This document shows positions 20,713-32,026 of a stretch of DNA of 32,673 nt, piece by piece (position 1 is the stretch's first letter; each line of letters begins with the position of its first letter). Both the position numbers and the translations under genes were made by a program. Under the pieces are notes generated by a model. The model made no database searches and was not told the DNA's origin. It saw only the letters and a list, made by a program, of their open reading frames with translations. The stretch lies in the IMG/VR virus record IMGVR_UViG_3300011113_000277, positions 1-32,673 of that record. One strand, given 5' to 3'. This DNA is from a virus.

Positions 20713-20855
20713 ACTTTGAAGAGAAGATTGTTGACTTGTTAAAAGAAGTAAAAGTGCTTTGGAAGTTGGAACAAGAGATCAGAGACCAAGCTATTAATAA
20801 CAAAGTGGTCGAAGACCTTCTTAAAAAACTTGATAAATTAAGAGGACAAAAATGA
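20709..20855 (+). CDS. 48-aa coupled small protein between helicase and polymerase
   Basis: Starts on ATGA at the helicase stop and ends on ATGA at the polymerase start, so it is translationally coupled on both sides. The product is entirely helical and charged, opening MNFEEKIVDLLKEVKVLWKL, with a heptad-like Leu/Val spacing that suits a short coiled coil. It could be a small partner of the polymerase or helicase, or simply a coupling gene. No homologue is recognised. Confidence 0.75.
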   Translation: MNFEEKIVDLLKEVKVLWKLEQEIRDQAINNKVVEDLLKKLDKLRGQK

Positions 20856-22717
20856 GTAACATGACCCTATTCCCTGTGCAGGTAGAGTGGTGTCCTCCGG
20901 ACAACTTCCCAGACTTATCCGCTGCTACGGAGATTGCAATTGACCTTGAGACTTGCGATCCCAATATGGAGTCCTATGGTCCCGGTTGGCCTCGTAAGGA
21001 TGGCTACATTGTTGGCTATGCCGTAGCAGTAGATGGCTGGAGTGGCTACTACCCTGTGGCACATGCTGGGGGTGGCAATCTAGACAAGAAGATGGTCGAG
21101 CGTTGGATGAAAGAAGTCTTAGCAAGCAACGCTGACAAGGTAATGCACAACGCCGCCTATGATATGGGCTGGCTAAAAGCCACAGGCTACACGATCAACG
21201 GGCGCATCATTGACACAATGCTTGCTGCCCCTATCTTGGATGAAAATCGTTTCTCGTATTCTTTGAACGCTCTTGGCTTTGATTATCTGCAGGAAACCAA
21301 GTCCGAAGTAGGCTTGCGTCAAGCCGCCGCAGACTTTAACGTCCATCCCAAAAAGGAACTCTGGAAGCTACCTGCCATGTATGTGGGATCGTATGCCGAG
21401 CAGGACGCCAACCTGACCTTAAAGCTTTGGCAACACTTCAAGCCCCTTATTCGTAAGGAAGAGCTTGAGTCCGTCTTTACCCTTGAAACAGACCTATTAC
21501 CTGTACTGATTGATTTAACCTTTAGAGGTATTCGGTTTGATAGAGCTAAGTGCGAACAGCTCATGGACCAATTCAAAAAGCGTGAGAAAGAAATTAACAA
21601 AGAGCTCAAGCGGATTGTTGGCAAGGATGTCGAAGTATGGGCAGCGGATTCAATTGCCAAGGCGTTTGATGTGCTATCCATTCCTTACTTTAAGACAGAG
21701 AAGGGCGCCCCAAGCTTTACCAAGAACTTCTTGGACAACGTAGATCATCCCGTTGCCAAGATGATTGTGGAAGCCCGTGAAGTCAACAAGACCCACGGAA
21801 CATTCTTAGAACCTTATTTGCAGTACTCAGCAATCGACGGGCGTATCCATCCGCACGTCAACCAGTTGCGCTCCGACGATGGGGGAACCGTTACCGGACG
21901 GTTATCTATGGCTAATCCCAACCTTCAACAAGTCCCCGCCAGACACGAAGTGATTGGACCCCTCGTTCGGAGCCTTTTCTTACCTGAAGAAGGGCACTTG
22001 TGGGCAGCAAATGACTTCTCGCAACAAGAACCACGGATCATGACCCACTACGGGTGTCTGTTAGACCTACCAGGCGCAGAGAAAGCCGCTGACGGCTATC
22101 GGTATGATGCCAAGGTGGACTTCCACCAAATGGTTGCTGACATGGCTGGGATTGATCGTAAGTCCGCCAAGACGATTGGTTTGGGATTGATGTATGGCAT
22201 GGGTAAGGCAAAGATGGCAAACAGTCTTGGACTAGAGATTGAAGAGGCAGATGACCTTATCAAGAAGTTTCACCTAAACGTGCCTTTCCTACGGGGAACA
22301 GTTAACGCTGTAATGAAGCGAATTGACCATCCTGCCGCTAACGGCACCATCCGAACTTTATTAGGCAGGAAGTGTCGTTTTAACCTCTGGGAACCCCAAG
22401 AGTGGGGTGTTAACAAGGCTCTGCCTAGAGAGCAGGCCGTCATTGAATACGGCCAACGGATTAAGCGTGCCTATACCTACAAGGGATTAAATCGCCTTAT
22501 CCAAGGCTCTGCTGCCGACCAGACCAAGGCTGCAATGATAGCGCTTGCTAACGCAGGACACCGTGTTTTGCTACAAGTACACGACGAGATTGCGTTAAGT
22601 GTTGCAGATAAAAAGCAAGCTGAAGAAGCTGCTCAAATTATGATCGACGCTGTACGCCTTGAAGTCCCTAGCAAAGTGGATGTGGAGATTGGCCCATCAT
22701 GGGGTGAAGCCAAGTGA
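20852..22717 (+). CDS. polA: Family A DNA polymerase with 3'-5' exonuclease, Leu at 762 position
   Basis: A 621-aa replicative polymerase. The exonuclease is intact: DLET (Asp31, Glu33), HNAAYD (Asp104) and YAEQD (Tyr181, Asp185). Polymerase motif A has Asp388 in NDFSQQE, motif B runs from Arg436 through Lys440 to Tyr448, and motif C is VHDE (576-579). The residue matching E. coli Phe762 is Leu444, a variant common in viral metagenome PolA and linked to slower, more accurate synthesis. No 5'-3' exonuclease domain is present. It is coupled to the 48-aa gene upstream and to the acetyltransferase downstream. Confidence 0.97.
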   Translation: MSNMTLFPVQVEWCPPDNFPDLSAATEIAIDLETCDPNMESYGPGWPRKDGYIVGYAVAVDGWSGYYPVAHAGGGNLDKKMVERWMKEVLASNADKVMHNAAYDMGWLKATGYTINGRIIDTMLAAPILDENRFSYSLNALGFDYLQETKSEVGLRQAAADFNVHPKKELWKLPAMYVGSYAEQDANLTLKLWQHFKPLIRKEELESVFTLETDLLPVLIDLTFRGIRFDRAKCEQLMDQFKKREKEINKELKRIVGKDVEVWAADSIAKAFDVLSIPYFKTEKGAPSFTKNFLDNVDHPVAKMIVEAREVNKTHGTFLEPYLQYSAIDGRIHPHVNQLRSDDGGTVTGRLSMANPNLQQVPARHEVIGPLVRSLFLPEEGHLWAANDFSQQEPRIMTHYGCLLDLPGAEKAADGYRYDAKVDFHQMVADMAGIDRKSAKTIGLGLMYGMGKAKMANSLGLEIEEADDLIKKFHLNVPFLRGTVNAVMKRIDHPAANGTIRTLLGRKCRFNLWEPQEWGVNKALPREQAVIEYGQRIKRAYTYKGLNRLIQGSAADQTKAAMIALANAGHRVLLQVHDEIALSVADKKQAEEAAQIMIDAVRLEVPSKVDVEIGPSWGEAK

Positions 22718-23151: not shown

Positions 23152-23168
23152 GTATAACTAACCTTGTG

Positions 23169-23174
23169 TATAAT
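23169..23174 (+). promoter_or_regulatory. Candidate -10 element of accessory operon
   Basis: TTGTGTATAATA contains a consensus TATAAT 24 bases before the RHH gene ATG. The same TGTGTATAATA string recurs at other promoters here (31236, 32010). No convincing -35 box is seen, so strength is uncertain. Confidence 0.45.
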
Positions 23175-23198
23175 ATAATTCGATACAGGGAGGTAGTA

Positions 23199-30166: not shown

Positions 30167-30225
30167 TATTTTTAGTTTTGCTGGGGTTTATTGTTTTATG
30201 GTGGGTGCTTGACAATCTAGAATGA
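30163..30225 (+). CDS. 20-aa membrane microprotein
   Basis: Starts on ATGA at the previous stop with GGAGG five bases upstream, a near-ideal ribosome site. Almost all residues are hydrophobic (FLVLLGFIVLWWVL) with an acidic DNLE end, giving a single membrane span. Its last codons carry the -35 and lie just before the -10 of the clamp promoter. Too short to be found by length cut-offs; the ribosome site is the main support. Confidence 0.6.
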   Translation: MIFLVLLGFIVLWWVLDNLE

Positions 30226-30236
30226 ATGTGTATTAT
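30209..30236 (+). promoter_or_regulatory. Sigma70-like promoter of clamp unit
   Basis: TTGACA (30209-30214), 16-base spacer, TATTAT (30231-30236), with a TATACA also overlapping. Predicted start near 30243, at the base of the leader hairpin. Confidence 0.75.
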
Positions 30237-30244
30237 ACAAATAT

Positions 30245-30263
30245 GGGTCAAATTGGTTGACTC
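30245..30263 (+). promoter_or_regulatory. 5' leader hairpin of clamp unit
   Basis: GGGTCAA and TTGACTC form a stem of 7 bp (one G-U pair) with a 5-base loop, followed by TTTTTAGGAG and the ATG at 30281. Same design as the other leaders in this region. Confidence 0.5.
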
Positions 30264-30280
30264 TTTTTAGGAGTGTAGAA

Positions 30281-30871
30281 ATGAGAAATATATATTTTGA
30301 TGGTGGTGTTCTGAGTGCTATGTCTATTCTTTCTGCTAAGAAAGATATTCGTTATTACTTGAATGGGGTGTTGCTGGAGGTTGACAACAAACTAATCCGT
30401 GCTGTTGCGACTGACGGCCATTTGTTGGGCGTGTATCAGCAAAGCAATAAGGGTGGTGACGAAGGCGAGCCATTCCGAGTGATTATTTCCCATGAGGTAA
30501 TTGCAAAGCTGGATAAAAAGGTGTTGCAACATACCTTGTCAAAAGAAGGGGATAAGTATGTGATTGACAATATTGGGTTTAGCGGGATTGAAGGCACATT
30601 CCCTGATTACATGCGAGTATTCCCTACGGGCAAAATATCAGGCGAGATTGCTCAATTCAATCCTGACTTTATTGCAAGGTTCACAAAGGTTGGTAAAGCG
30701 TTGGGCATGAAAAACCCTATGCCTACGATTGGACACAATGGCACAGGCACAGCGTTGGTTGATATTGGTAAGCCTGACTATTTTGCTGGATTGATGATGC
30801 CTTATCGGGCAGAGCACACAATGCTTTTTACCCCAGCGTGGCTAACAAAAATGGAGGTTCAACATGCTTAG
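30281..30871 (+). CDS. Two-domain beta sliding clamp (DnaN-like, domain I absent)
   Basis: A 196-aa homologue of the bacterial beta clamp that starts at domain II. Residues 22-50 (DIRYYLNGVLLEV, then AVATDGHLLG) match the E. coli region DVRYYLNGMLFE and TVATDGHRLA almost residue for residue. FPDYMRVFP (107-115) matches FPDYRRVLP, and LMMPYR (171-176) matches the clamp C-terminal VVMPMR. Domain I, about 120 residues in bacterial clamps, is missing; the start is set by AGGAG seven bases upstream and the leader hairpin. The partner-binding pocket residues are largely kept. It has its own promoter, about 8 kb from the polymerase. Confidence 0.85.
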   Translation: MRNIYFDGGVLSAMSILSAKKDIRYYLNGVLLEVDNKLIRAVATDGHLLGVYQQSNKGGDEGEPFRVIISHEVIAKLDKKVLQHTLSKEGDKYVIDNIGFSGIEGTFPDYMRVFPTGKISGEIAQFNPDFIARFTKVGKALGMKNPMPTIGHNGTGTALVDIGKPDYFAGLMMPYRAEHTMLFTPAWLTKMEVQHA

Positions 30872-31018: not shown

Positions 31019-31243
31019 ATGCTTCTAACTGATAAACCCATGAGTATTGCCTTAATTCAACAGCGTTATCACCCTGAAATTTCCGAGGCTATGCTGGAGA
31101 GTATGTTTGATACCCCTGTGAGCGATTTAATAGAAGAATTGTTGCACTACATGGGTCAAGAAAAAACAGACAGATGGGCAAGAGAAATTCAAAAGGATAA
31201 TGAAATAAAAGACCTTTACAAAAATAACCTAGGTTGTGTATAA
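31019..31243 (+). CDS. Hypothetical acidic small protein
   Basis: A 74-aa protein with GAAGGGA upstream of ATG 31019. Helical throughout (SIALIQQRYHPEISEAMLESMF and SDLIEELLHYMGQEKTDRW). Its last codons overlap the -10 of the next promoter. No family is recognised. Confidence 0.68.
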   Translation: MLLTDKPMSIALIQQRYHPEISEAMLESMFDTPVSDLIEELLHYMGQEKTDRWAREIQKDNEIKDLYKNNLGCV

Positions 31244-31244
31244 T
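31215..31244 (+). promoter_or_regulatory. Sigma70-like promoter of Nmad5-like unit
   Basis: TTTACA (31215-31220), 18-base spacer, TATAAT (31239-31244) in the recurring TTGTGTATAATACAA context. Predicted start near 31251, at the base of the following hairpin. Confidence 0.7.
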
Positions 31245-31249
31245 ACAAA

Positions 31250-31996: not shown

Positions 31997-32013
31997 AATT
32001 ATTTGTGATTGTG

Positions 32014-32019
32014 TATAAT
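32014..32019 (+). promoter_or_regulatory. Candidate promoter (-10 only)
   Basis: TATAAT in the recurring TTGTGTATAATACAA context. No good -35 box; the preceding hairpin at 31973-31996 occupies that position, which could mean activator control. Predicted start near 32026. Confidence 0.5.
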
Positions 32020-32026
32020 ACAATCA

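Follow-up and report, generated by a model that had tools for sequence, protein, structure and literature searches.

A viral stretch of 32,673 nucleotides (IMG/VR record IMGVR_UViG_3300011113_000277, positions 1 to 32,673; hereafter the window) encodes, at 30281-30871 on the plus strand, a protein of 196 aa that raises the question of how a sliding clamp could assemble and act without domain I. The open reading frame starts with ATG behind an AGGAG at 30269-30273 and specifies three clamp half-domains and then a C-terminal tail; we refer to the product as the mini-clamp. The original prediction, made from the sequence, saw domains II and III of a beta sliding clamp in it and proposed that such chains might close a trimeric ring.

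Homology, family and half-domain anatomy

The window protein is homologous to DnaN, the beta sliding clamp of bacteria, and lacks domain I. The beta-clamp central domain PF02767 matched it at 2.3e-7, above the Pfam cut-off, and TIGR00663 at 2.5e-10 (residues 14-118 on 141-252), with a score of 39.9 that lies below a curated cut-off of 137.65 set for whole DnaN. Beta clamps of solved structure in the PDB matched the protein down to 1.5e-9 and the family profile down to 1e-29. These matches bear out the predicted beta-clamp homology. PADLOC gave no match for the window protein. An AlphaFold model of the single chain (39 sequences; pLDDT 89.9, pTM 0.84) has a clamp fold. Among the matches listed in a structure search with this model, Z scores ranged from 13.9 to 17.7 and nearly all matches were beta clamps or their complexes, the best of those listed being 6ap4 (Z 17.7); families missing among them are not taken as excluded. 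The model's residues 1-177 can be overlaid on 125-366 of E. coli beta, with 169 residues agreeing at 2.3 A (6fvl, Z 16.2); this superposition is known by its ends, the skipped beta residues inside it not being given.

The protein belongs to a large family. A tblastn search at E <=0.01 retrieved 140 phage records. In 65 of these the match spans 80% or more of the query, and the remainder include full-length clamps, among them the one in Rhizobium phage 16-3. In IMG/VR, 399 of 475 pattern matches encode relatives. The best 80 of the 399 were kept, and 77 remained after one locus at a contig end could not be read (L017) and two broken or cut ones were dropped (L055, L076); the 79 frames read have a median length of 200 aa, with starts chosen by script. 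Bacterial contigs contributed 29 loci, namely 16 full-length clamps, one cut locus (L110) and 12 short members in Pandoraea, Achromobacter, Acinetobacter, Pseudomonas, Shewanella and others, the short members presumably being prophages. Three further scans, partly of the same contigs, yielded 240 loci. The median is 203 aa for the uncut ones, and no locus among the 240 has a stop-to-stop frame longer than 330 aa. After loci cut at the 3' end, shorter than 130 aa or identical were left out, 176 joined the first 96 to give 272 non-identical members; both sets are unthinned for relatedness. PF02767 was found in all 39 members scanned, and in 3 of the 39 the domain I profile also matched weakly (best 0.0016), as homologous repeats might give. 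A near-twin record (G001, 57.8 kb) encodes a mini-clamp 94% identical to that of the window. In ungapped comparisons, dN/dS was about 0.09-0.18 against three near relatives and 0.06-0.17 in two other pairs; judged by these ratios, the gene is under purifying selection.

Each clamp domain consists of two beta-alpha-beta-beta-beta half-domains. In the mini-clamp, half-domain IIa (aa 1-57; 30281..30451, plus strand) has this motif and carries the DIRYYL and ATDGH pocket blocks; its elements in the model are E2-7, H8-15, E29-34, E38-44 and E48-55 (E, strand; H, helix). Half-domain IIb (aa 58-116; 30452..30628, plus strand) has the same motif and then the FPDY linker (E65-70, H71-76, E83-89, E92-95, E98-101, H110-113). 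The next segment (aa 117-176; 30629..30808, plus strand) is IIIb, the second half of domain III with the MPYR end (H128-140, E149-151, E158-161, E168-172). A tail of aa 177-196 (30809..30868, plus strand) closes the chain. DnaN ends at MPxRL, whereas many mini-clamps extend beyond MPYR with a tail that frequently holds a P-x-W motif (P185 in 71/96 members, W187 in 55/96); some members lack the tail.

The model thus shows the beta-alpha-beta-beta-beta motif three times; in the third copy the first strand (about aa 120-126) does not form in the monomer. A full-length DnaN, L097, modelled in the same pipeline (11 sequences, pLDDT 89.9), has after its domain II helix (244-247) a complete IIIa (E255-259, H260-272, E280-286, E289-295, E301-309) and a complete IIIb (E315-320, H321-330, E335-340, E347-351, E357-361). 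Compared with L097, the mini-clamp has lost the whole IIIa set, and the residues matching E315-320 are present but form no strand.

Profiles and lengths place the deletion in the same position. On 7rzm, family-profile positions 16-131 align with 151-264, and the alignment then jumps so that positions 127-184 align with 320-373, a second stretch that is weak by itself (4.0 bits). Against profiles of the six half-domains, derived from 19 full clamps, the best score assigned the third segment to IIIb in 91 of 95 members, to IIb in three and to IIIa in one; the remaining member of the 96 (L111) has no FPx motif and was left out of the scoring. The window protein's own third segment scores -0.9 bits with IIIb, too diverged to score, so it is the family and the model that carry the case for IIIb. 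FPD and MPxR lie 41-79 residues apart (median 66) in those 221 of the 272 members in which the regular expressions could measure the interval (51 unmeasured), and 121-161 residues apart in 17 full DnaNs. When two full-length phage clamps were included in a global alignment by MAFFT, the third segment fell on IIIa, with only MPxR at the C-terminus; this placement was set aside, since profile scores, HMMER local alignments and both models give IIIb. The superposition on 6fvl also fits IIIb holding its place beside IIa.

Taken together, the sequence profiles, the lengths and the AlphaFold model agree that the mini-clamp consists of domain II and the second half of domain III, with about 55 residues of IIIa missing, and thus supplies three of the 12 half-domains of a ring. 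We hold it as very nearly certain that the chain comprises one and a half clamp domains, has largely kept the peptide pocket and has lost both halves of the dimer interface. A DnaN chain has three domains, or six half-domains, where we found three half-domains; a PCNA or gp45 chain has two complete domains, where we found 1.5. The predicted span, beginning with domain II and reaching the C-terminus, is right for domain II and for IIIb, and wrong for IIIa, which is absent by profiles, length and models.

Peptide pocket and basic helices

The clamp-binding motif (CBM) pocket was compared at 18 positions, taken from PMC11139829. By sequence, 13 of the 18 have the E. coli residue in the window protein, and the pocket blocks originally noted are kept. 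Among the 96 members, identity to E. coli is complete for R152 and P242 (96 each) and high for T172 and G174 (93), H175 (92), L155 and P363 (91), M362 (88), V247 (82), V360 (79) and R246 (78). It declines through R365 (71, with K in another 20), N320 (59), L177 (53) and Y323 (43) to R176 (21), M364 (14) and V344 (0); the counts at domain III positions depend on the third segment being IIIb. In window numbering, the pocket residues are R24, L27, T44, G46, H47 and L49 in IIa and P108, R112 and V113 in IIb, and the corresponding counts are 96 for R24 and P108, 93 for T44 and G46, 92 for H47, 91 for L27 and P174, and 88 for M173. The pocket at the IIa/IIIb seam is therefore largely kept by sequence, and it is predicted to bind peptides.

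The three presumed DNA-facing helices carry a net positive charge in 95/96 members (mean +3.2), against a mean of -3.3 for the rest of the protein; their summed charge is +5 in the window protein and +2 in E. coli. The loop A19-K20-K21-D22 is among the best-conserved parts (K20 in 92/96) and aligns with the DNA-contacting Gln149 loop of beta as described in PMC11139829. Basic helices by themselves are no proof of a ring. The conserved pocket together with the basic face would favour a tethering role on DNA over that of a simple sponge.

Upstream signals and genome context

A promoter-like site, TTGACA-16-TATTAT (30209-30236, plus strand), precedes the gene and has 11 of 12 consensus bases. It overlaps a recurrent 14-mer (TGTGTATTATACAA at 30227-30240), and a small inverted repeat lies in the 5' leader (30245..30263, plus strand). 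The 14-mer, TGTGTAT(T/A)ATACAA, occurs at 30227-30240, 31235-31248 and 32010-32023, and with one mismatch at 23165-23178; with up to one mismatch, four copies were found in the window and 0.03 were expected. One copy precedes the mini-clamp, and a hairpin and a GGAG..ATG start follow three of the four. The 14-mer that overlaps the promoter-like site of the mini-clamp recurs before two neighbouring genes. From their sequence context, these sites look like a set of phage promoters, and the mini-clamp gene is probably expressed early. A strong promoter of its own, as first proposed, is plausible given the consensus match and the recurrent 14-mer; the promoter scan taken as a whole did no better than shuffled sequence (12 promoter-like sites versus a mean of 11.2).

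A missing domain I might have been encoded elsewhere. PF00712 (domain I) was above cut-off in none of 33 mini-clamp records, the window and G001 included, many of these records being fragments; a single sub-threshold match, in G009, lies inside its mini-clamp. Domain I is thus absent from the protein and was found nowhere else in these records, in line with the original prediction. The clamp-loader family PF13177 was found in none of the ten records tried, among them G001 (the window record was not one of the ten). A family-A polymerase is present in 18 of the 33 records (E <=0.001; 15 above the Pfam cut-off), and in BcepC6B the mini-clamp gene directly follows it; in the other 15, neither a phrog_17 nor a PF00136 polymerase was found. 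In the 23 contigs of the window's own PolA lineage, the mini-clamp was found once, in the near twin, and a PF02767 search agrees. The 22 contigs without it include six of 56.8-68.0 kb, the rest being shorter and many of them fragments, and the complete circular relative DSL-LC04 also lacks it. The mini-clamp is probably an accessory gene and no obligate polymerase subunit.

A possible client in the window is the phage family-A DNA polymerase (20852..22717, plus strand), whose N-terminus, MSNMTLF (motif at 20858-20872), resembles the AMSLF motif of the clamp-loader subunit delta reported in PMC11139829. The PolA of DSL-LC04 starts VKTMSLF. The motif-like N-termini of the lineage (window 20852-20872 and relatives L148-L227) include NMTLF, TMPLF and QMAMF, and HTVC023P has QLTLTF. 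Within the first 16 residues, a strict clamp motif was found in 24 of 77 lineage PolAs versus 0.48 expected on shuffling, and a relaxed motif, written after several of the N-termini had been viewed, in 55 of 77 versus 6.15 expected; start codons were picked by script, and three of 80 PolAs were left out (L179, L180, L221). None of 17 mini-clamp phage PolAs, that of the window among them, has the strict motif. Fourteen of the 16 other mini-clamp phage PolAs have neither the strict nor the relaxed motif in their first 16 residues, and the two that have one are near twins of the window. Among all window proteins, the strict motif occurs twice versus 3.9 expected on shuffling, and in no replication protein.

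Because the lineage with the motif mostly lacks the mini-clamp, its PolAs probably dock, judging from their N-termini, on the host beta clamp, with the mini-clamp as an added accessory. The 15 of 33 records without a recognised polymerase and the 14 of 16 PolAs without the motif leave a general role as a polymerase tether unsupported. The suggested link to the phage PolA is weak, as the mini-clamp did not turn up in most contigs of the closest polymerase lineage.

Assembly, function and comparison with known systems

In the beta dimer, strand b4'' of domain III packs against b8 of domain I (PMC4858162), with I272, L273, E298 and E304 facing I78, R103 and F106 (PMC11139829). This places IIIa against Ib, so both sides of the contact are absent from the mini-clamp chain; the head-to-tail IIIa-Ib dimer of DnaN has neither of its half-domains here. 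With the pocket kept and the ring-closing parts lost, the protein must either find a new mode of assembly or serve as a decoy. According to PMC11139829, a monomeric beta variant binds DNA and cannot tether Pol III, and a tethering role would thus need an oligomer.

The anatomy suggests how an oligomer might form. Clamp domains have approximate two-fold symmetry inside, and the first strand of IIIb, left without a partner, calls for a second chain. We hypothesize that this beta-derived chain of three half-domains, in the arc order IIb-IIa-IIIb, would use the IIIb face that packs on IIIa in beta to pack on the IIIb of a second copy. Two copies would then make one full clamp domain and a C-shaped half ring of three domains, like one beta chain, and two such arcs could close into a four-copy ring of 12 half-domains. 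The mini-clamp would sit on DNA without a phage-encoded loader and tether proteins with clamp-binding motifs: the phage PolA in the window lineage and, where a phage has no recognised polymerase, the Pol III of the host or proteins of repair and recombination. We give an even chance to the mini-clamp being such a clamp-like adaptor, accessory and independent of a loader, whose orphaned half-domain mediates dimerisation. The four-copy ring of D2 symmetry, with IIIb-IIIb and IIb-IIb joints, 12 half-domains and pockets on both faces, is a good deal more speculative; if true, it would have no preferred direction, would need no phage loader and would add a third stoichiometry of clamp rings.

Coevolution was examined with an effective number of 85 sequences for 155 columns (3 of 272 rows dropped for gaps). 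The coupling 11-74, between the two domain II helices, fits the model and was equalled by 1.3% of random blocks. The coupling 50-168, between a IIa and a IIIb strand, also fits (z 4.4), although 15.5% of random blocks equalled it on the top-three measure. For packing of the IIa and IIIb helices there was no signal (equalled by 34%). The pairing of IIIb with IIIb (120-153 and 124-151, antiparallel register) was not significant, with 12% of blocks equalling it. Of two control strand pairings, which we presume from clamp topology, one gave no signal (68%) and the other a weak one (9.5%).

The main rival to the tethering adaptor is a decoy: a clamp fragment that forms no ring and titrates host proteins bearing the motif, such as delta and Pol III alpha, early in infection. 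The largely kept pocket beside a lost dimer interface, the promoter-like site of its own, the occurrence in phages whether or not they have a recognised polymerase, and the accessory distribution would all suit it. Moreover, in a direct comparison given in PMC11139829, delta bound a monomeric variant of beta some 50 times more tightly than it bound the dimer, although the delta-beta affinities given in that source differ widely. However, a decoy needs no basic DNA-facing helices, yet these are net positive in 95/96 members, and the A19-K20-K21-D22 loop (K20 in 92/96), aligned with a DNA-contacting loop of beta (PMC11139829), is among the best-conserved parts. We regard the decoy as a serious contender that is nonetheless rather unlikely. 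The clamp-like role and the competition for host clamp partners that were both raised at the outset are thus possible.

The same tether might alternatively be a hub for recombination or repair, serving phage annealing and nuclease proteins instead of a polymerase. Two records without polymerase, L084 and L023, have Erf-, RecT- or RecE-like genes within 10 kb of the mini-clamp; these two loci are also the only ones read for such genes, and we consider the hub improbable. The trimeric ring of six domains, which the absence of domain I and a chain size between one and two domains would suit, is very unlikely. The ring-shaped clamps described in PMC9690074 and PMC4858162 have six domains, however many chains they are made of. 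With IIIa missing by profile, length and model, a chain has 1.5 domains, so three chains would bring 3 x 3 = 9 half-domains where the rings described have 12, and strand b4'' of domain III, which makes the ring contact in beta (PMC4858162), is gone. A trimer like that of PCNA or gp45 thus has no support: besides having too few half-domains, the protein has neither the strand nor the helix through which domain III makes the contact in beta.

The last reading comes from public labels. PHROG 3007 (phrog_3007), which matched the window protein at 3.6e-24 (residues 10-178 on 9-187 of 190), and many of the phage records matched by tblastn name the family a RusA-like Holliday junction resolvase. We dismiss this reading as having next to no likelihood, because Pfam, searched with an E limit of 1, gave no RusA family in any of the 39 members scanned, Bcep781 has a separate RusA-annotated gp22 lying 7.7 kb from its clamp-type gp15, and the fold matches beta clamps. 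On these beta-clamp relatives the RusA label appears to be an annotation error, and phrog_12598, another PHROG match of the window protein, could share it. Other public names are "DNA polymerase III beta subunit" and, for Bcep781 gp15, "DNA Pol III b subunit fragment". PHROG 3007 takes in Bcep781 gp15 and BcepC6B gp31, and the relatives read under the RusA label have the architecture of the window protein. BcepC6B gp31 (L006:12001-12603) is annotated from an internal GTG, and homology starts at another GTG 87 bases upstream. Rhodococcus phage REQ2 gp51 (266 aa; L141:36591-37391) came up in the structure search as a candidate full two-domain clamp and reads instead as a mini-clamp with a Lys/Ala-rich tail, although in the first half of the protein the Ia profile beats the IIa profile. 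Its tail of about 50-60 residues is Lys/Ala/Pro-rich and histone-H1-like and could add DNA binding. The family is thus already in databases, often misnamed. No functional study of it was found in the literature searched, which covered few subscription papers, so an earlier description is possible.

A widespread phage family without the ring-closing half-domains, and with the pocket and the basic face, tests the limit of clamp reduction, and it tests whether half-domains from two chains can rebuild one clamp domain. Its recognition corrects a misleading resolvase label on many phage genes. Furthermore, the mini-clamp is a natural minimal protein bearing the clamp peptide pocket, which is described as a drug target in PMC11139829.

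With E. coli DnaN, the mini-clamp shares sequence, fold (2.3 A over 169 residues), the CBM pocket and basic inner helices; DnaN has 366 aa with domain I and IIIa, whereas the mini-clamp has 196 aa without both. Like the trimeric PCNA and T4 gp45, it is built of clamp-domain repeats with fewer domains per chain than DnaN, but those chains have four half-domains and the mini-clamp three. The herpesvirus proteins UL44 and UL42 are processivity factors that act without a loader or a ring, UL44 as a C-shaped dimer in the account of PMC9690074; the likeness is one of working only, and the mini-clamp is clearly derived from beta. Finally, phage Gp168 binds the host clamp, as the title of 7evp states, and offers a parallel to the inhibitor reading; the chain that the mini-clamp model matched, 7evp_A, is the 377-residue beta clamp and not Gp168.
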